A model generated the notes under the pieces. It was given only the letters and a program-made list of their open reading frames with translations, searched no databases and was not told the DNA's origin. From Haloferax marinum (GTDB taxonomy: Archaea; Halobacteriota; Halobacteria; Halobacteriales; Haloferacaceae), in assembly GCF_009674625.1 (NCBI RefSeq), contig NZ_WKJQ01000001.1:1984001-2048000 (forward strand): a stretch of 64,000 nucleotides of DNA, read 5' to 3'. Each line of letters begins with the position of its first letter. Position 1 is the stretch's first letter. Shown piece after piece: positions 7,886 through 27,430 of the stretch. Made by a program: the position numbers and the translations under genes.

Positions 7886-8994
7886 AACTCGACGAACCAG
7901 TCGCAACCGACCCACTGCTGACCGTCAAAGACCTCGAAGTCGGCTTCGAATCCTTCGACGGGTTCGCAGAAGTCATCGACGGTGTCAACCTCTCCATCGG
8001 AAAGGGTGAGGTCGTCACCATCGCTGGAGAGACTGGCTGTGGCAAGTCTGTGACGATGAAGTCCATCCTCAGACTCCTGAACCAGCCACCGGCCCGAGTG
8101 AACGGCGAGATAACCTTCGACGGGACAGAGCTACTCTCCCTGTCGGACTCGGAGTTCGAGCGTGTCAAAGGCCAGCGAATGAGCCTCGTCTTTCAGGACC
8201 CGATGTCGAGTCTAAACCCGACGTTCACGATCGGTGAGCAACTCACCGACACGGCACAGTTCGGTGGGGACAGCGACACTGGCGTCATCGAATTCTTCCG
8301 ACGGAAGTTCAGCAGCGAACGCGACGAGGCTCGAGAGCGTGTCTTAGAGATGCTCCGTGAGGTTCAGATGCCTGACCCGGAGAACATCATGGACTCGTAT
8401 CCGTCGCAACTCTCGGGAGGGATGCGCCAACGAGCACTCATCGCACAAGCGCTGTTAAACGAGCCCGACCTCTTGATTGCAGACGAAATCGGGACTGCGC
8501 TCGACGTGACGATCCACGACCAGATTCTCGACCTGCTCAAAGACCTCATCGAAGAACACGACCTGAGTGTTCTGATGATCACGCACAACCTCGGGGTTGC
8601 CAGACAGGTGAGCGACCGCGTCTACGTGATGTATGGTGGTCGAATCGTCGAGACGGCCCCGACAGAGGAGCTGTTCGAGAATCCAAAACATCCCTACACA
8701 CAGGGACTCATCGCATCCATCCCGCGGTTGACTGGCGACGAGATGGCAGAAGGTATCGACGGCTCGATTCCCGAATATCTCGACCCGCCACGGGGGTGCC
8801 GGTTCGCACCTCGGTGCCCGTATGCAACTGCTGAATGTGAACAGGGGCGGCCAGAAATGTACCAGGGAACCAACCAGTCCGGTGTCGAGTGTATTCTCTA
8901 CGATGAAACTGTCGAACTATCAGACCGACCAACTGTCGAAGAGACTCGAAGTCACATGACTCGACGGTCGGGAAGCCTCATGGGGGATGACTGA
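7882..8994 (+). CDS. ABC transporter ATPase, DppD/OppD type
   Basis: This 370-residue nucleotide-binding subunit has Walker A GETGCGKS (residues 49-56), signature LSGGMRQR and an H-loop in MITHNLG. The C-terminal oligopeptide-ABC extension carries a Cys cluster (GCRFAPRCPYATAEC) thought to bind an Fe-S cluster in relatives. The Walker B region reads LLIADEIGTALD where the family normally has DEPTTALD; the catalytic Glu is kept. An insertion near residues 130-150 (FFRRKFSSERDEARER) is longer than usual. It works with the DppF-type subunit encoded next. Confidence 0.93.
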   Translation: MKLDEPVATDPLLTVKDLEVGFESFDGFAEVIDGVNLSIGKGEVVTIAGETGCGKSVTMKSILRLLNQPPARVNGEITFDGTELLSLSDSEFERVKGQRMSLVFQDPMSSLNPTFTIGEQLTDTAQFGGDSDTGVIEFFRRKFSSERDEARERVLEMLREVQMPDPENIMDSYPSQLSGGMRQRALIAQALLNEPDLLIADEIGTALDVTIHDQILDLLKDLIEEHDLSVLMITHNLGVARQVSDRVYVMYGGRIVETAPTEELFENPKHPYTQGLIASIPRLTGDEMAEGIDGSIPEYLDPPRGCRFAPRCPYATAECEQGRPEMYQGTNQSGVECILYDETVELSDRPTVEETRSHMTRRSGSLMGDD

Positions 8995-10075
8995 TATGAG
9001 TGGGTCACTCCTCGCAGTCGACGGCCTCAAGAAGTACTTCCCGGTGAAGGGAGGCATCATCAAACGAACGACAGACCACGTGAAGGCTGTCGACGGGGTC
9101 TCTTTCGACATCGAACGAGGCCAGACACTCGCACTCATCGGTGAGTCGGGAAGTGGCAAGAGTACTGTCGCTCGGACGATAATCGGTCTCCATCGCGCGA
9201 CCGATGGAACCGTAGAGTTCGACGGTGAGGACATCACGAATGCGACCGACGAGCAATTGGCTCGGCTTCGGTCGCGGATTCAGATGGTGTTTCAAGACCC
9301 GACGTCGAGTCTGAACCCACGACGGACGATTGGGAAATCACTCGCAGTGCCGCTGAAGGCACGTGGTGTTCCGAAATCCGAACGCCGTGACCGGGTAATC
9401 GACCTACTCGAACGAGTCGAGCTCAACGACGAGTACTGGAATAAGTACCCTCACGAGCTCTCGGGTGGACAGAAACAGCGCGTCAACATCGCCCGTGCGC
9501 TCGCTGTCGAGCCGGACCTACTGTTACTCGACGAGCCAACGAGCGCCCTCGACGTGAGTGTCCAAGCGAAAATCATCGCGCTTCTCGAGGACCTCCAAGA
9601 AGAGTTCGACCTCACCTACCTCTTCATCACGCACGACCTCTCGCTGGTCCGTAATTTCGCCGACGAGACTGCAGTGATGTACCTCGGTGAGATTCAAGAA
9701 CGGGGGGTGACCGAAGAAGTATTCCAGCGACCGAGACACCCATACTCTCGAGCGCTCCTCTCGGCGATTCCTGTCACAACGGAGGAAGAAGAAGCATACA
9801 AACCCCGTCACGAACCGCTTCGTGGCGAGATACCGAGTCCACGAGACGTCCCATCCGGGTGTCGGTTCCACACTCGTTGTCCGTACTCGACAGATGCGTG
9901 TTCCGCCGAAGAGCCGACGTTCGCGACGGTCGATTCGGGTCCAAGCGTTCGGTGCCACATCTACGACGAGAGCTATCGAGACGAGTTCGATGAGATTCCA
10001 GAAGTGGCTGTTGAGGCCATCACGGACGGTGGAGGAACCGCCGCGAAGCACACAGAACGAGACGTAGAGCAGTGA
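8987..10075 (+). CDS. ABC transporter ATPase, DppF/OppF type
   Basis: This 362-residue nucleotide-binding subunit has Walker A GESGSGKST, signature LSGGQKQRVNIARAL, Walker [15 protein letters not shown], and the C-terminal Cys motif GCRFHTRCPYSTDAC. The ATG at 8987 overlaps the previous gene by 8 nt; an in-frame ATG at 8996 would give two nucleotides of space and is an equally possible start. It completes the five-gene importer. Confidence 0.93.
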   Translation: MTDMSGSLLAVDGLKKYFPVKGGIIKRTTDHVKAVDGVSFDIERGQTLALIGESGSGKSTVARTIIGLHRATDGTVEFDGEDITNATDEQLARLRSRIQMVFQDPTSSLNPRRTIGKSLAVPLKARGVPKSERRDRVIDLLERVELNDEYWNKYPHELSGGQKQRVNIARALAVEPDLLLLDEPTSALDVSVQAKIIALLEDLQEEFDLTYLFITHDLSLVRNFADETAVMYLGEIQERGVTEEVFQRPRHPYSRALLSAIPVTTEEEEAYKPRHEPLRGEIPSPRDVPSGCRFHTRCPYSTDACSAEEPTFATVDSGPSVRCHIYDESYRDEFDEIPEVAVEAITDGGGTAAKHTERDVEQ

Positions 10076-11172
10076 CTACGATGAAAATCACGACAGACAA
10101 TATCGACGACTTCGCCACCGGTGCAACCGTCCTTGGGACGGGCGGCGGTGGTGACCCATATATCGGGAAGCTGATGGCTGAACAGGCCATCGAAGAACAC
10201 GGCCCAGTCGAGCTTATCGACCCACGTGAGGTCCCAGACGATGCTCTCGTCATTCCGAGCGCGATGCTTGGAGCACCCACGGTGATGGTCGAAAAGATTC
10301 CTCGAGGGACGGAAGCCCTCGCAGCGTTCGAGTCTTTAGAGACACATCTCGGCCAAGAAGCGTACGCGACGATGAGTATCGAAGCGGGCGGGCTGAACAG
10401 TACCGTTCCAATTGCCGTTGCTGCGGCACTCGACCTCCCCCTCGTCGACGCTGACGGGATGGGACGTGCGTTCCCAGAAGTGCAGATGGTGACGCTCACG
10501 ATGGGTGGAATCAGTGCGACTCCGATGAGCATCGCCGACGAGAAAGGCAATTCGTTGTTTGTGGACACGATCGACAACGAGTACGCCGAGGCGTTCGCCC
10601 GCGTAACGAGTATCGAGATGGGTGGTGCGTGTATGATTGGAACCTACGCTCTTTCTGGAGCAGAGGTTCGTGAACACGCGATTCTCGATTCGATGTCGCT
10701 CGCACACGACATCGGAGAATCGATCCGAACCGCAAAGGACCGCTCACAAGACCCTGTCGAGTCTGTCCTCGAACTAACCCACGGGTACGAATTATTCGAG
10801 GGCAAAATCGTCGACGTTCAGCGCCGGACCGAAGGTGGATTCGCGGTTGGCGAAGCCACCCTCGAAGGGTTGTCCGACTGCGAGGGTCGCCAACTCACGT
10901 TGAACTTCCAGAACGAGCACCTCGTTGCTCGTGACTCTGCGCACGGAATCCTCGCGAGTACGCCCGACCTGATTACTGTCCTCGACGCGGAAACAGGCGA
11001 TCCAATTACGACCGAGCGCATGGCCTACGGCCACCGAGTTCGGGTCATCGGTATGCCCTGTTCGCCAAAGTGGCGGACCGACGAAGGACTGGACCTCGTC
11101 GGGCCTGAATATTTCAACTACAGTATCGACTACGAACCAATCGAAACTCTCCAAAATCAAATCAATGACTGA
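10072..11172 (+). CDS. DUF917 family protein, copy 1
   Basis: The 366-residue member of the DUF917 family (Pfam now names its domains after S-methyl thiohydantoin desulfurase) carries the glycine motif VLGTGGGGDPYIGK near residue 20. It also has DADGMGRAFPE and EGKIVDVQRRT, which recur in the two paralogues of this operon. The GTG at 10072 overlaps the ATPase stop by 4 nt in keeping with every other junction; ATG 10081 is the alternative. The family acts with hydantoinases on ring-type amides, but the substrate here is unknown. Confidence 0.85.
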   Translation: MTTMKITTDNIDDFATGATVLGTGGGGDPYIGKLMAEQAIEEHGPVELIDPREVPDDALVIPSAMLGAPTVMVEKIPRGTEALAAFESLETHLGQEAYATMSIEAGGLNSTVPIAVAAALDLPLVDADGMGRAFPEVQMVTLTMGGISATPMSIADEKGNSLFVDTIDNEYAEAFARVTSIEMGGACMIGTYALSGAEVREHAILDSMSLAHDIGESIRTAKDRSQDPVESVLELTHGYELFEGKIVDVQRRTEGGFAVGEATLEGLSDCEGRQLTLNFQNEHLVARDSAHGILASTPDLITVLDAETGDPITTERMAYGHRVRVIGMPCSPKWRTDEGLDLVGPEYFNYSIDYEPIETLQNQIND

Positions 11173-12709
11173 CTACAGAATCGGAATCGACGTTGGCGGT
11201 ACGAACACGGACGCGGTCGTAATGAACAGCGACGACGACCTGCTTGCAAAGACAAAAACTCCGACGACAGAAGACATCACCACAGGTATCTTGAACGCTC
11301 TCGATGTCGTCCTCGACGACAGCGGAGTGAGCGAAGACGAACTCGAGTACGTGATGCTCGGGACGACGCACGCGACCAATGCGATTACTGAACGTCGTGG
11401 ACTCAACGAGGTTGGTGTCATCCGAATCGGTGCACCAGCGACTCAGAGTATTCGCCCGCTATTAGAGTGGCCAGACGACTTGGCCGACGCAATCGGGAAC
11501 AACGTCGCCATCCTCGATGGTGGACACGAGTTCGATGGACGAACTCTCAACGATCTCGATGAAGAAGAGATTCGTGAGCAAGTCCGTGAGTTCGCAGACG
11601 TCGACGCCTTCGCTGTGACGAGTGTCTTCTCACCAGTCCGAGACGACCACGAGAAACGCGTCACTGAGATAATTCGAGAGGAAGTCGGAGACGACGTTCC
11701 CGTCTCCGTTTCGAACGAGATTGGGAGCGTTGGCTTGCTCGAACGTGAGAACGCGACGGCACTCAACGCAGCCCTCACAAACGTCGCCGAAGAGGCCGCG
11801 ACTGCGTTCGTCGATGCGATGGACGAGCGTGGAATCGACGCGAATCTCTACTTCGGACAGAACGACGGGACGCTGATGAGCGTCGACTACGCCATCCGAT
11901 ATCCAATCTTCACAGTCGCGAGCGGGCCGTCCAATTCGGTCCGTGGGGCAGCATACCTCTCCGAGGTCGAAAACGGAATCATCGTCGACGTCGGCGGAAC
12001 CACCACCGACGTCGGTGCAGTCACCGAAGGGTTCCCACGCGAAAGTAGCGTTGCCGTCGAGATTGGTGAGGTCAAGACCAACTTCAGAATGCCGGACATC
12101 ATCGCGATAGGCATCGGTGGTGGCTCGATAGTCTCCACCGATGGTGACGTCACTGTTGGCCCACAGAGTGTCGGGTACAAACTGACTGAGAAGGCCAAAT
12201 GTTTCGGAGGAGAGGTTCTCACTGCAACCGACTTGGAAGTTGCCGCCGGGACGATCGATATCGGGCCTGAGACGCCAGACGTCGACCAGACCGTCGTCGA
12301 AGCAGCCCGCGAATACGTCAGAGAACGTGTCGAGCGTGAAGTCGACCGGATGAAAACGAGTGCCGACCCGGTCCCAGTCGTCATCGTCGGCGGTGGGAGT
12401 ATCCTCGTGCCTGATGAGATAGAGGGTGCGAGTGAGGTCTACAAACCTGACCACTACGAAGTTGCGAACGCTGTCGGTGTCGCAATCGCACAGGTGTCGG
12501 GTGAAGTCGACCGCATCTACAGTCTCGACGAGATGAGTCGTGAAGAAGCGATTCAGAGTGCGAAAGACGAAGCAACGGACAACGCCCTCGCCGCAGGTGC
12601 CGACGAAGACAGTGTCGACATCGTCGACGTCGAAGAGGTCCCACTCTCGTACCTTCCCGGCAATGCCGTGCGAATCAAAGTGAAAGCCGCAGGAGCGCTC
12701 GACCACTGA
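11165..12709 (+). CDS. Hydantoinase/oxoprolinase family protein, short HyuA type
   Basis: This 514-residue protein has the N-terminal sugar-kinase-like nucleotide motif IGIDVGGTNTDAVV, a second phosphate motif VDVGGTTTDVG near residue 280, and VPVVIVGGGSI near residue 405. Length fits the short HyuA proteins found next to DUF917 genes, not the 700-residue ATP-dependent HyuA that pairs with HyuB; no HyuB gene is present. Members open hydantoin or 5-oxoproline rings with ATP. It overlaps the genes on both sides. Confidence 0.87.
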   Translation: MTDYRIGIDVGGTNTDAVVMNSDDDLLAKTKTPTTEDITTGILNALDVVLDDSGVSEDELEYVMLGTTHATNAITERRGLNEVGVIRIGAPATQSIRPLLEWPDDLADAIGNNVAILDGGHEFDGRTLNDLDEEEIREQVREFADVDAFAVTSVFSPVRDDHEKRVTEIIREEVGDDVPVSVSNEIGSVGLLERENATALNAALTNVAEEAATAFVDAMDERGIDANLYFGQNDGTLMSVDYAIRYPIFTVASGPSNSVRGAAYLSEVENGIIVDVGGTTTDVGAVTEGFPRESSVAVEIGEVKTNFRMPDIIAIGIGGGSIVSTDGDVTVGPQSVGYKLTEKAKCFGGEVLTATDLEVAAGTIDIGPETPDVDQTVVEAAREYVRERVEREVDRMKTSADPVPVVIVGGGSILVPDEIEGASEVYKPDHYEVANAVGVAIAQVSGEVDRIYSLDEMSREEAIQSAKDEATDNALAAGADEDSVDIVDVEEVPLSYLPGNAVRIKVKAAGALDH

Positions 12710-13794
12710 TGACGGTGGAAATTGGTGTCGAAGAGATAGAAGATATCGCACTCGGGGCGACAGTTCTTGGTACCGGTGGCGGTGGAGACCCCCACGTCGG
12801 GAAACTCGTCGCAAAACAAGCGATCGAAGAGTTCGGTCCCGTCGAACTCGTTCACCCCGACGAACTCGCCGAGGACGCCTTCGTCGTCCCAACAGCACAG
12901 ATGGGTGCACCGACGGTCTCTGTCGAGAAGCTCCCGAGTGGACAGGAGGCAGTCGACTCACTCGAACGTATCGAACGCGAACTCGACCAGGAAGTCGATG
13001 CGACGATGCCGATAGAATGTGGTGGCATCAATTCGACGTTCCCATTTGCAGTCGCTGCTCGCCGTGGACTTCCCGTCGTTGACGCCGATGGCATGGGGAG
13101 AGCATTTCCTGAACTTCACCACGAGACGTTCAACATCTATGGCGTCAGTGGGACGCCTGCCGCAGTCAGTGACGAACGCGGGAATACGTGTCTGATCGAG
13201 ACTGCAGATAACGAGCAACTCGAATGGCTCGCCCGAGGAATCACGGTTAGAATGGGCGGTGTTGCGTACGTTTCTGACTACCCCATGACAGGCACAGAGG
13301 TGAAAGACACCGCAATCCCAGGAACGATGACTCTCGCACGTAACCTTGGTCGAGAACTCAGGAAAGCCGAAGATGATGCGATGGACGCGATCCGTGAGGT
13401 GACGCGGTCTTCCATCTATGGCGAGGCCCAGTCGTTATTCGAAGGCAAAATCGTCGACGTTCAACGCCGAACTGAACAGGGATTCGTATTCGGACACGTC
13501 GACGTCGGCGGACTTGGTCCAGACGAAGGCTCGACGATGCGTATCGAGTTCCAAAACGAGAACCTTGGTGCCCAAGTCGACGGAGAGTACGTCGCAACAG
13601 TGCCAGACCTCATCACTGTCCTCGACCTCGAAACTGGAGGGCCCATCCCAACGGAGAGCCTTCGATACGGCGCGCGAGTCCGCGTTCTCGGGGTCAGAAC
13701 CCCCGAAATCATGCGAACTCCTGCGGCCCTTGACGTTTGGGGACCACGCTCGTTCGGCCTCGAGACGGCCTACAAACCATTGGAGGGTGAATGA
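12709..13794 (+). CDS. DUF917 family protein, copy 2
   Basis: The 361-residue paralogue shares VLGTGGGGDPHVGKL, DADGMGRAFPEL and EGKIVDVQRRTEQGF with copy 1, and is clearly closer to copy 1 than to copy 3. Its ATG shares one base with the hydantoinase stop codon. Having two similar copies on either side of the hydantoinase suggests distinct ring substrates, stereoisomers or a hetero-oligomer; these are inferences. Confidence 0.85.
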   Translation: MTVEIGVEEIEDIALGATVLGTGGGGDPHVGKLVAKQAIEEFGPVELVHPDELAEDAFVVPTAQMGAPTVSVEKLPSGQEAVDSLERIERELDQEVDATMPIECGGINSTFPFAVAARRGLPVVDADGMGRAFPELHHETFNIYGVSGTPAAVSDERGNTCLIETADNEQLEWLARGITVRMGGVAYVSDYPMTGTEVKDTAIPGTMTLARNLGRELRKAEDDAMDAIREVTRSSIYGEAQSLFEGKIVDVQRRTEQGFVFGHVDVGGLGPDEGSTMRIEFQNENLGAQVDGEYVATVPDLITVLDLETGGPIPTESLRYGARVRVLGVRTPEIMRTPAALDVWGPRSFGLETAYKPLEGE

Positions 13795-18375: not shown

Positions 18376-18705
18376 CTACTTCAGATACCCTTCGACGTGC
18401 TCGACGACGCGGTCGACAAACGTCTCTTCGAGACGCCCCTGCCACGCCACGAAGTCCTCTTTCCGAGGTGAGTGAACTGCCCACGGAGAGACGAACGAGT
18501 CGCGTGGAACACCACCGACTTCCCACAGGTCATCGGTGAGCGGGAGCGAGTCCTCGTACTGCTTAGTCGAGATGGCGACCGCAATGTACTGCTGGTCACC
18601 GAACGGGTGGGAGTCGTTGTTGACGATGAGCCAAGGTCGTTGTCTGTCGTCGCCGAGTTTGAACGGGTCAGAACTTCGGACGACATCACCACGCCTCGGT
18701 TGCAT
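18376..18705 (-). CDS. PemK/MazF-type endoribonuclease toxin
   Basis: This 109-residue protein has the MazF-like opening RRGDVVRSSDPF, then RQRPWLIVNNDSHPFG and AVAISTK, matching the family beta-barrel. MazF-type toxins cut mRNA at short sequence motifs. The ATG directly abuts the stop of the upstream HTH gene (TAGATG), so the pair is translated together with the antitoxin first. The C-terminus (WQGRLEETFVDRVVEHVEGY) is kept in the decayed copy at 3749-4078. Confidence 0.88.
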   Translation of the reverse strand: MQPRRGDVVRSSDPFKLGDDRQRPWLIVNNDSHPFGDQQYIAVAISTKQYEDSLPLTDDLWEVGGVPRDSFVSPWAVHSPRKEDFVAWQGRLEETFVDRVVEHVEGYLK

Positions 18706-19077
18706 CTACTGCGTGTCCTCGTCTCGTTCGCTCGGATGCGGTGTCTCTGGGGCTACCGAGTCCCATTCGTCGGCGTCGATGCCGCCGTCTTCGTCGTCCA
18801 GTCTGTCGGTCGTGGTGTGGAGGTCGTACGCGGCGGCGACGCGTTCGTCGTCGTCCGTGATTGCCCAGAACTCTCCCTTGTGGCGAACGAGGCTTCGGGC
18901 CTTGAGTCGAGAGAGTGCAGTCCCGACAGTGTTCGGGTCTTCACTGATTGCTGTCGCAATCTCGGAACGGGTGAACGCTTGGTCGCTGTGTGTGTAGAGA
19001 TACGTGACCACCTGTTCGGGAACGCTCGGTCCTCGTGGGAGGTCACCGGACTCGAAGTCGTCGATGCTCACGGGCAT
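18706..19077 (-). CDS. Winged-helix protein, likely antitoxin of the PemK pair
   Basis: This 123-residue protein has a winged-helix core in residues 16-75 (VPEQVVTYLYTHSDQAF, then TRSEIATAISEDPNTVGTAL and RHKGEFWAI), MarR-like. An acidic C-terminal tail (DEDGGIDADEW) is the sort of disordered segment that blocks a toxin. The ATG at 19077 is preferred to an upstream start at 19134, which would add a non-homologous extension. Together with the toxin it fills the interval between the ends at 18290 and 19255. Its antitoxin role is inferred from arrangement. Confidence 0.75.
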   Translation of the reverse strand: MPVSIDDFESGDLPRGPSVPEQVVTYLYTHSDQAFTRSEIATAISEDPNTVGTALSRLKARSLVRHKGEFWAITDDDERVAAAYDLHTTTDRLDDEDGGIDADEWDSVAPETPHPSERDEDTQ

Positions 19078-19149
19078 ACTGCGAAATAGATGTGCTGATG
19101 TAATGAGTGTACTGCTGTACTTTACGTGCTGCACGTCGTCGGTGAATCC

Positions 19150-19352: not shown

Positions 19353-20384
19353 ATGCACTTCGAGTTAGAGCCGATTACCCCAGAAGACGCCGTCGAATCG
19401 TACCTGGAAGAGAAACAATCAGAGTTTGCGGAAGCAACACTCCGCTCTCAACAATCCCGACTCAACCACTTTCTGGAGTGGTGTCGCAACGAAGATCTCA
19501 CGCATCTCAACCCTCTAACGGGACGCGACCTTCATCGATACCGTCTATGGCGTCGAGAAGATGGTGACCTCGCACCCGCGAGTGAGAAAACACAGATGGA
19601 CACCACCCGGGTGTTCATTCGATGGTGCGAATCGATCGATGCCGTTCACACCGATCTTTCGACGAAAGTCATCTCACTCAGTCTGAGTATCGGAGAGAAC
19701 TCACGTGACGTGATGGTGACCGCCGAGGCTGCTGAAGAGATCCTAGACTATCTCAGTACATACGAGTATGCGTCTGAACGGCATGTCTGCTTTCGATTGA
19801 TGTGGCGAGCGGCCCTCCGTCGAGGCGCAGTCGTCGCGCTCGACGTCGAGGATTACGATTCGAACAATCAGTCGCTGGAAGTGAAACATCGTCCTGAGAC
19901 GGGCACCCCACTGAAGAACAAGCAACGCGGTGAGCGGTTCATCGCCTTGTCTGACGAGACGTGTTCGGTGTTGGATGCGTGGATTGGTGATTGCCGCCCT
20001 TCTACAACGGATGAGAATGGCAGAGACCCCTTGCTTTCCACTCCACAGGGACGAGCCCATCCGACGACAATTCAGACGTACATCTATTCGGTGACGAAGC
20101 CGTGTCTGACCACTGGGGAGTGTCCGCATGGCCGTGCGGTTGAGGAGTGCAAGCCAGCGACTGACCGGACCCACGCATCGAAGTGTCCGTCACCGGTGTC
20201 TCCTCATGCGCTTCGTCGGGGTGCAATCACCTACTGGCTCTCGTCTGATATGCCTGAACCGGTCGTGAGTGACCGGGCCAATGTCTCTTCAGAGATTCTG
20301 AAGACACACTATGATCGCCGGTCCAAACAGGAGAAGATGGGGCAGCGTAGGGGCTATCTCGACAATATTCAACGGTCTTGTTGA
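19353..20384 (+). CDS. Tyrosine recombinase/integrase (haloarchaeal phage-integrase type)
   Basis: This 343-residue protein has a SAM-like N-terminal core-binding domain (residues 10-105: EEKQSEFAEATLRSQQSRL) and a catalytic domain. Visible catalytic elements are Arg in WRAALRRGAVVAL, Lys in LKNKQRGERFIAL, H-x-x-R in SPHALRRGA, and the nucleophile Tyr in KTHYDRRS. A Cys/His insertion (TTGECPHGRAVEEC to SKCPSPV) before the HxxR motif is typical of haloarchaeal integrases and may bind zinc. It follows a tRNA-like core by 97 nt, the usual int-att spacing, so this enzyme probably recombines the tRNA-Arg 3'-end sites. Confidence 0.9.
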   Translation: MHFELEPITPEDAVESYLEEKQSEFAEATLRSQQSRLNHFLEWCRNEDLTHLNPLTGRDLHRYRLWRREDGDLAPASEKTQMDTTRVFIRWCESIDAVHTDLSTKVISLSLSIGENSRDVMVTAEAAEEILDYLSTYEYASERHVCFRLMWRAALRRGAVVALDVEDYDSNNQSLEVKHRPETGTPLKNKQRGERFIALSDETCSVLDAWIGDCRPSTTDENGRDPLLSTPQGRAHPTTIQTYIYSVTKPCLTTGECPHGRAVEECKPATDRTHASKCPSPVSPHALRRGAITYWLSSDMPEPVVSDRANVSSEILKTHYDRRSKQEKMGQRRGYLDNIQRSC

Positions 20385-20717
20385 AACCTATTGATTCGAC
20401 ATTTCCCGACTGCAAGGCCGGTGAGAAGCTGTGCAAACATACCATCGGCGCTCCTGTCTGTCGTCAGGTGTGTGAAACGAGCCGTGCCGAATACAGGGCG
20501 CGAATCGGTCACGGTCTACGGGGGGTTCCTGAGTGTTCTCGGGGTGTCAGAGCGTATCCCACGAGTACTGCGTGCAGTAGTTGAGACTGCCTGTCTCAAT
20601 GCATACGGCCGACGCAGTTTGATATTCCACTCAAACACTACTTCGCGCGTCCCTCCCTCGGATATCAGGGCTGGGACAGGCATAACCGTCCAGCGACCCT
20701 CTGACTAAAGAGTCACA
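20385..20717. other. Intergenic stretch downstream of the integrase
   Basis: No gene is supported. It contains one clean hairpin (ttgagac, spacer, gtctcaa; 20581-20599) that could end transcription. GC content rises after it, and the CBS protein that follows has more typical chromosomal codon use. Confidence 0.5.
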
Positions 20718-21926
20718 ATGGATATCTCTGAGATACTCTCCCCGAAATTCACGGAGTTCGATATCGGTACACCGCTCTCGAAGGTCGCCGGAGCGTTCGA
20801 GAATCAGGAACTCGATGCGGTCATCGTAACGGACGGCGACGAGTATCGCGGAGTCGTCAGCCGCCGACAGCTAGCTTCTTCGTCCAACCAGCCCTCGGCA
20901 AAGGTCGGCTCACAGGTACAGCACGTCCCGACGGTCGACCGTACCGAAGATGTCCGCGAAGTCGCACGGCTCATGATCGGTAGCGACGCCAAGACGCTCC
21001 CCGTACTCCGCGATGACCGTGTCGTCGGTGTGGTGACTGGCGATGCCGTCCTCGAAGCTGTCCGGCCGTTCCTCGACGCGGTGACTGTCGACGACGCGTA
21101 CACGGCAGAATTGGTCAGTGCGACCCCTGAAACCACGATCGGGCAAGCGCTCAATCTGCTTCGAGAAGCCGGAATCGCCCATCTCCCGGTCGTCGACGGG
21201 GACGACCTCGTGGGCATGTTGAGCCTGTACGATGTCGTCGAGTTCACGACGCGGGGCGGCAGCAAGAGCCAGGGAGGGTCGTCGGGTGGCTCCGGTGGTC
21301 GCGGCGGTCGCGGACAGAATCGTGGCGGGTTCGGGGCGCGCGAGGGTGATTCCGACCGAATGCTCGATCTGCCGGTACGGAACCTGATGTCCGATACCGT
21401 CGCGACGGTCGAGCGGAGCGCTCCGCTCGACGAGGCCGTCGAGGCGATGTTCGAGCGGGAGATCTCGTCGCTCGTCGTCACGGCCGAGGGGACCGGTGAC
21501 CCGGTCGGTATCATCACGAAGACGGACGTCATCGAGGCGCTCACCTGGGAGCGCGACGACCGGAACGCCGTCCAGGTGTTCGGCCTCGAGCTGCTGGAGG
21601 GGATGGACTACGACGATGTCTCCGCGTTGATCGAGAGTGTCGCCTCGAAGTACGGTGAGATGACCGTGATCAAGGCCAGTATCGAACTGCAGGAGCACAA
21701 GGAGCAAAATCGGGGTGTGCCGCTGGTGCTGGCACGGATTCGACTGGTCACCGACCGCGGCTACTTCACGGCCGATGGCGAAGGATACGGCGCGACGCAC
21801 GCACTCCGTCTTGCCGCGAACGCAGTTGAACGCCAGCTGCTCAAGGGGAAGACCTACGGTGACTCGAAGAAGCATCCCGACACTGACGAGCAGGCACAGC
21901 TCTATGGCTGGTGGCTTGGCGGGTAA
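20718..21926 (+). CDS. Four-CBS-domain protein with HPF/S30AE-like C-terminal domain
   Basis: The 402-residue protein has CBS motifs at about residues 1-55, 65-115, 125-175 (HLPVVDGDDLVGMLSLYDVV) and 218-275, with a Gly/Arg-rich linker (residues 182-206) between the third and fourth. The last 100 residues (ARIRLVTDRGYFTADGEGYG, then ATHALRLAANAVERQLL) resemble the strand-helix end of ribosome hibernation factors. CBS pairs bind adenosine nucleotides, so ribosome inactivation controlled by energy charge is an attractive inference. CBS proteins are known to act as ribosome dormancy factors in other archaea. It seems to be transcribed alone. Confidence 0.8.
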   Translation: MDISEILSPKFTEFDIGTPLSKVAGAFENQELDAVIVTDGDEYRGVVSRRQLASSSNQPSAKVGSQVQHVPTVDRTEDVREVARLMIGSDAKTLPVLRDDRVVGVVTGDAVLEAVRPFLDAVTVDDAYTAELVSATPETTIGQALNLLREAGIAHLPVVDGDDLVGMLSLYDVVEFTTRGGSKSQGGSSGGSGGRGGRGQNRGGFGAREGDSDRMLDLPVRNLMSDTVATVERSAPLDEAVEAMFEREISSLVVTAEGTGDPVGIITKTDVIEALTWERDDRNAVQVFGLELLEGMDYDDVSALIESVASKYGEMTVIKASIELQEHKEQNRGVPLVLARIRLVTDRGYFTADGEGYGATHALRLAANAVERQLLKGKTYGDSKKHPDTDEQAQLYGWWLGG

Positions 21927-26822: not shown

Positions 26823-27251
26823 TTACCCCTGGGTCTGACGGACGAACTCGTCGAGTTCTGCTTCAATGAGCGTCGAAACCCGTTCGCTATATCGCCAGAG
26901 CGCTGCATTGAGTCGCTCTTCGGTCTCGTCGTCGAGACCGTCTCCGCCACGAAGGACGGAATCTTTGCTGATCTGTGGGTGATAGACACAGACCACACCG
27001 AGTGAGGCATCCGAGCTTGAGGTCCCCGCTGTGTGGATCCCGTATTGGTCAGTTCCCCAGACACCATCGCCGCCCTCTCGCTCCAGTTCAGAGTCGAACG
27101 CGTCGAGCAGTTGTATCTCTTCGGCGGAGAGGATGGGATCGTCACCTTCGAACAGTTCAGTGTACGCCTCCATCCGGGCACTCTTCGTCCACTGTTCCAA
27201 CTGGGAACGCGCCCGTAGTACAAGTTGTCGTTCGTCTGGAAACTCGGCCAT
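26823..27251 (-). CDS. Hypothetical haloarchaeal protein
   Basis: This 142-residue acidic protein starts at ATG 27251 (MAEFPDERQLVLRARSQLEQW); an upstream start at 27308 adds an unlikely extension. It looks mostly helical, with a central HPQISKDSVLRGGDGLDD and a C-terminal amphipathic helix. No motif gives a function. It is convergent with the 91-residue gene and has no operon partner. Confidence 0.6.
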   Translation of the reverse strand: MAEFPDERQLVLRARSQLEQWTKSARMEAYTELFEGDDPILSAEEIQLLDAFDSELEREGGDGVWGTDQYGIHTAGTSSSDASLGVVCVYHPQISKDSVLRGGDGLDDETEERLNAALWRYSERVSTLIEAELDEFVRQTQG

Positions 27252-27430
27252 AGTCAGTAGAGAACGGCCAACCGAATCAACGTTCGTGTGCCTGCGGTCG
27301 GTGGGCAACGGTGGTCACATCCGTGAAATACTCGACGCATCTCCAGTCAGAATTCCTCATCGCCGGTGTCGCTGATGGCCTGTTCGTGACGGAGCAACGC
27401 AGGCCGAAGGGCGAGTTAGGAAGGGGTAGT

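Follow-up and report, generated by a model that had tools for sequence, protein, structure and literature searches.

A horizontally acquired long-loop HibA paralogue, a probable ribosome hibernation factor, in Haloferax marinum

The window analysed here is a 64,000-nucleotide stretch of Haloferax marinum DNA (contig NZ_WKJQ01000001.1), and coordinates are positions within it unless stated otherwise. On its forward strand, an intact open reading frame of 402 codons begins with an ATG at 20718, ends at 21926 and encodes a complete, 402-residue long-loop paralogue of HibA, as judged from the ORF call, PDB sequence matches, tree and alignment. Its start methionine coincides with that of its homologues in the alignment. 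From the N-terminus, the protein consists of CBS1 to CBS3 (residues 1-178; 20718-21251; Pfam CBS and alignment), a Gly-rich loop that carries the insertion and joins CBS3 to CBS4 (residues 180-213; 21255-21356; alignment and AlphaFold2), CBS4 (residues 214-276; 21357-21545; Pfam and alignment), a predicted HPF-fold domain (residues 285-378; 21570-21851; AlphaFold2, Foldseek and homology to 9l96_a and 9sr9_H) and a C-terminal tail ending in GWWLGG (residues 379-402; 21852-21923; alignment). In agreement with a preliminary description of this DNA, which had recognised four CBS motifs in a single 402-residue protein, Pfam reports four CBS stretches in the full-length sequence (E = 2.9e-38) and no other domain. 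The same description had likened the C-terminus to HPF and proposed structure prediction as a check. By score, the isolated C-terminus misses membership of the S30AE/HPF family PF02482 (14.2 bits, E = 0.075, against a gathering cut-off of 23.7 bits), but the fold is nevertheless shared: an AlphaFold2 model built from ten aligned C-terminal domains has a strand-helix-strand-strand-strand-helix topology (mean pLDDT 74), and nearly all of its top Foldseek matches in the PDB are YfiA, HPF or RaiA, the best being YfiA/HPF on ribosomes. These bacterial proteins are about 12-19% identical to the window domain in the fold matches and, unlike the window protein, carry no CBS module. The motif ANAVERQLL (residues 367-375), which had been taken for the end of the HPF-like segment, is indeed the final helix of the predicted fold, but a further 27 residues follow it. 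The full-length AlphaFold2 model, resting like the first on a shallow alignment, has a mean pLDDT of 66 and a pTM of 0.45, with values below 50 across residues 179-213 and low confidence for residues 377-402 as well. Its fold search returned AMPK-gamma-like structures and archaeal CBS proteins, including the ribosome-bound Dri (Pyrobaculum calidifontis) and SriA-D (Methanosarcina acetivorans), which come from ribosome structures and are among the top fold matches to the CBS part. In contrast to the window protein, both consist of CBS modules only and lack an HPF/RaiA domain, as described for Dri (PMC13324472) and as judged from chain length and match for SriA-D.

Two PDB sequences match the window protein over its full length. 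The first, 9sr9_H, is P. abyssi HibA, which aligns to residues 2-376 (E = 1.2e-36); the second, 9l96_a (E = 3.6e-115), is identical over all 405 residues compared to WP_004060604.1, encoded on the H. mediterranei plasmid pHME505. The HibA paper of April 2026 (PMC13324472) describes four CBS domains joined to an HPF/RaiA domain, and the P. abyssi (Q9UYR4; PDB 9sr9, 9sra-9srf) and T. barophilus (F0LKU5) proteins share with the window protein not only this architecture but also a CBS3-CBS4 loop and (S/T)xxD motifs in CBS3 and CBS4. The proposed fusion of a CBS tetrad with an HPF-like ribosome-binding module is therefore correct, on the strength of the HPF-fold model and of full-length homology to a ribosome-bound protein, but it is an already published design and not the distinct one it was thought to be. 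According to PMC13324472, cryo-EM places the C-terminal domain of P. abyssi HibA in the mRNA/tRNA channel of the 30S subunit and its CBS module at three positions on the 50S subunit, while a loop (residues 190-207) enters the peptidyl-transferase centre (PTC) and contacts 23S rRNA. HibA inhibits translation, and knockout of the T. barophilus homologue delays regrowth and reduces 70S ribosomes (PMC13324472). In 2025, H. volcanii HVO_2384 was noted as a haloarchaeal relative that has an RHF-like domain (PMC12607858); judged from its mass, it is probably of the canonical haloarchaeal type. A canonical protein is also encoded in the H. marinum genome (P0003); it has the same domain order as the window protein at 42% identity, but differs in its 17-residue loop, its tail ending in RGQLLRKLNEL and its near-universal occurrence.

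What sets the window protein apart, and was not part of the preliminary description, is a longer loop, a different tail and horizontal mobility. The loop was compared in an alignment of 15 haloarchaeal core HibAs, 15 other archaeal HibAs and P. abyssi HibA with 22 long-loop members. It is 17 residues long in 30 of the 31 canonical proteins (15 in the remaining one), as against 36 in the window protein and 29-42 in the long-loop members, so that the Gly/Arg stretch is an insertion lying immediately ahead of the PTC-loop tip. Most of the 22 long-loop members also end in GWWL or a variant thereof, with an RGY end in two (L018 and L020), a tail that is typical of long-loop HibAs and differs from the canonical ones; it is in loop and tail that the two types differ consistently. 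The H. mediterranei protein WP_004060604.1 is likewise a plasmid-borne long-loop HibA with a GGFGAREG motif and a GWML tail, but it belongs to a separate long-loop lineage, has a 42-residue loop with fewer glycines and, at about 49% identity, is a paralogue of the window protein and not its orthologue. The Gly-rich stretch previously described as a Gly/Arg linker exists (glycine makes up 44% of residues 180-213, which also include five Arg/Lys), but it lies between CBS3 and CBS4, where it aligns with the P. abyssi PTC loop, and not at the CBS/HPF junction. A generic RGG-type RNA-binding or phase-separating linker, unconnected with a PTC loop, would fit the loop sequence itself (GGRGGRGQNRGG) and the disorder that AlphaFold2 predicts across it. 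This alternative is unlikely in view of the alignment with the PTC loop and of the residues that are actually conserved. Within the close clade, K183, S184, Q185 and G187 are invariant, as are G203, G204, G206, R208 and G210, and in most long-loop members the variable part is flanked by QGG on one side and GG[FY]G[AE]R[EA]G on the other. Although R195 and R202 are mostly kept, R198 occurs in the window protein alone among 23 aligned close relatives, and the other long-loop paralogues are Gly-rich without RGG repeats; we rejected the RGG-protein reading on this pattern of arginine conservation. Because the linker sits where the HibA loop touches 23S rRNA in P. abyssi, contact with RNA is nevertheless plausible by analogy.

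CBS1 and CBS2 lack the (S/T)xxD motif, as they do in P. abyssi HibA, while CBS3 contains it at S169-D172, invariant in 23 aligned sequences, and CBS4 at T267-D270, where it is conserved. In P. abyssi HibA, ATP or AMP binds between CBS3 and CBS4, with a Kd of 12 uM for AMP and the CBS module, and neither nucleotide alters ribosome binding more than scarcely in vitro (PMC13324472). Adenylate control of the window protein, as in a nucleotide switch, is a conjecture from these motifs.

The analysis establishes the homology to HibA, the predicted HPF fold, where the loop lies and how long it is, the conservation of the protein, its spread by horizontal transfer and the presence of a haloarchaeal relative in deposited large-subunit structures. 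The window protein is most readily read as a hibernation factor that blocks idle ribosomes, sends its loop to the PTC, protects the ribosome through stress and is released on recovery. We put the probability of this reading, drawn from sequence and structural models, at roughly 0.85. The 36-residue Gly-rich loop would reach into the PTC and might continue into the exit tunnel; a ribosome bound in this way would be inactive, shielded from decay and freed on recovery, and AMP or ATP may sit between CBS3 and CBS4 beside the loop, possibly with a regulatory effect. The longer loop may also reinforce the 50S end of the complex, such that free 50S subunits could be held in addition to 70S ribosomes. 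Weighing against the model, P. abyssi HibA without its two HPF-domain insertions inhibits translation as before (PMC13324472). A role outside hibernation, for example sensing adenylates for DNA maintenance or regulating transcription, could be argued from the replication and recombination proteins with which P. abyssi HibA was pulled down (PMC13324472), from the co-purification of H. volcanii HVO_2384 with a Pat2 variant (PMC12607858) and from HhpR, a CBS protein that regulates transcription. We regard it as very unlikely, given that residues of the HPF domain are strongly conserved and that structures of the large subunit include a long-loop paralogue from a haloarchaeon.

These structures bear on which particle the long-loop proteins bind. 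The H. mediterranei long-loop HibA is a chain in four PDB entries (9l96, 9l98, 9l9c and 9l9v), which identifies the CBS chain of those entries. Haloarchaeal uL2 is present in all four and aIF6 in 9l9c and 9l9v, while sequence searches with uS3, uS12 and uS19 returned no chain from any of them. With a large-subunit protein present and the three small-subunit proteins not found, the entries look like large-subunit structures, and long-loop HibAs may thus also cap free 50S subunits; the published account records no 50S:HibA complexes for P. abyssi (PMC13324472). Our literature search found no paper on this series of entries. Going further, long-loop HibAs could be specialised 50S-storage or anti-association factors, anchored by the loop and capping free 50S along with aIF6, instead of acting chiefly to stabilise 70S as P. 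abyssi HibA does. The loop and tail differences agree with this alternative, whose chances we place a little short of even: purifying selection has retained the HPF domain, which is a module for 30S binding, and the 50S particles in these entries may derive from 70S ribosomes that dissociated during preparation, or the entries may be 50S-only models.

The H. marinum genome encodes three HibA paralogues, the window copy included, and beside the two others the window copy may have a specialised role or be redundant. Of 60 sampled genomes from the family, 59 contain a HibA match, including all 53 of high quality. The short type is nearly universal in this sample and about 40-44% identical to the window protein, while the window type is sporadic, at 87-93% identity, and was not found in the two congeners sampled. 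The window clade (tree support 100/100) spans five haloarchaeal families at 79-93% identity, with members from Haloferacaceae, Haloarculaceae, Natronomonadaceae, Haladaptataceae and Natrialbaceae intermixed. Among plasmid records, 42 match the window protein, 23 of them at at least 80% identity, and no canonical haloarchaeal HibA is among the plasmid matches listed. In six other genomes that each hold both an accessory and a core HibA, the accessory long-loop copies lie at a dS of 0.29-0.56 from the window copy, as against 0.80-1.18 for the core HibAs, with a dN/dS of about 0.1 for the accessory copies. The window gene is best explained as a horizontally acquired long-loop HibA paralogue, one of a group whose copies are sporadic and often plasmid-borne. 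A tyrosine recombinase/integrase ORF (19353-20384, forward strand; Pfam Phage_integrase, E = 4.9e-8) ends 333 bp upstream of it, an arrangement consistent with arrival via a mobile element. A viral origin was considered and dropped, as there was no match to a phage record and IMG/VR yielded no confirmed relative. That the gene is a functionless plasmid passenger in decay might be read from its sporadic presence and from fragments in relatives (G019, G022 and L063), but the low dN/dS, the frames intact across five families and a conserved upstream element make this scarcely credible. Beside the integrase, two reverse-strand ORFs (18376-18705 and 18706-19134) resemble by eye a PemK/MazF-like toxin and a winged-helix protein, respectively; neither has a match in Pfam.

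The upstream element (20673-20717, forward strand) consists of (T)GGACAGGCATAACCGTCC followed by a CTAAAGAGTCAC-type stretch reaching the ATG. It is about 45 bp long, has a GGAC..GTCC inverted repeat flanking a CATAA box, is common to nearly all members of the window clade and is absent 5′ of all other HibAs examined. Reading TGGACAGGCATAACCGTCC...AGAGT-AC-ATG, the element travels with the gene and is possibly a promoter plus operator. A regulon sharing the element was rejected: besides this single exact copy, the genome holds one three-mismatch match, apparently inside another coding frame, and the other HibA paralogues lack the element. About 4.9 kb downstream of the HibA gene lies a gene for a DUF7539 (PF24383) protein (26823-27308, reverse strand; HMM match 26841-27233). 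ORFs of the DUF7539 cluster, whose window member is partly a different reading frame overlapping this gene, lie downstream and convergent within about 6 kb in 16 of 30 loci. Across the 60 genomes, 8 of 25 DUF7539 copies have a long-loop HibA less than 10 kb away (about 0.08 expected at random, the copies being non-independent) and none of the 25 is near a core HibA. DUF7539, on which our literature search found no paper, is possibly a partner of long-loop HibA or fellow cargo. Three DUF7539 copies are present in this genome, and two of them, at genome positions 1335109 and 2010841, lie less than 5 kb from long-loop HibAs. A conserved operon was rejected: the annotated plasmid neighbourhoods differ, and recurrence in the main clusters checked was limited to genes for DUF7539, DUF5789 and universal stress proteins. 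The neighbours of the pHME505 long-loop HibA gene (L068, 6001-7221) include a universal stress protein gene.

Relative to published HibA, the window protein thus differs in its Gly-rich loop of 36 instead of 17 residues and its GWWL tail, and it is accessory and horizontally mobile. New here is the mobile subfamily of long-loop HibAs, together with a hint of a free-50S location; the available text of PMC13324472 does not include that subfamily and mentions no haloarchaeal paralogues or plasmid copies. Long-loop HibAs might form a distinct, plasmid-spread class whose loop and GWWL tail are retuned for free 50S with aIF6, and which would amount to a transferable second dormancy programme, with a promoter element of its own and DUF7539 as a linked gene in the window clade; we advance this tentatively, with the odds leaning against it. 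Hibernation factors are usually regarded as core genes that are inherited vertically. Sporadic plasmid HibA paralogues, kept under purifying selection and altered in the loop that enters the PTC, suggest that a capacity for ribosome dormancy can be transferred. They also provide natural loop variants for probing the role of the PTC loop, and suggest a HibA-family role for many haloarchaeal plasmid genes annotated as "CBS domain-containing protein". Elsewhere in the window, two S-Me-THD domain proteins are encoded on the forward strand (10072-11172 and 12709-13794), near an oligopeptide ABC transporter ATPase gene (8987-10075).
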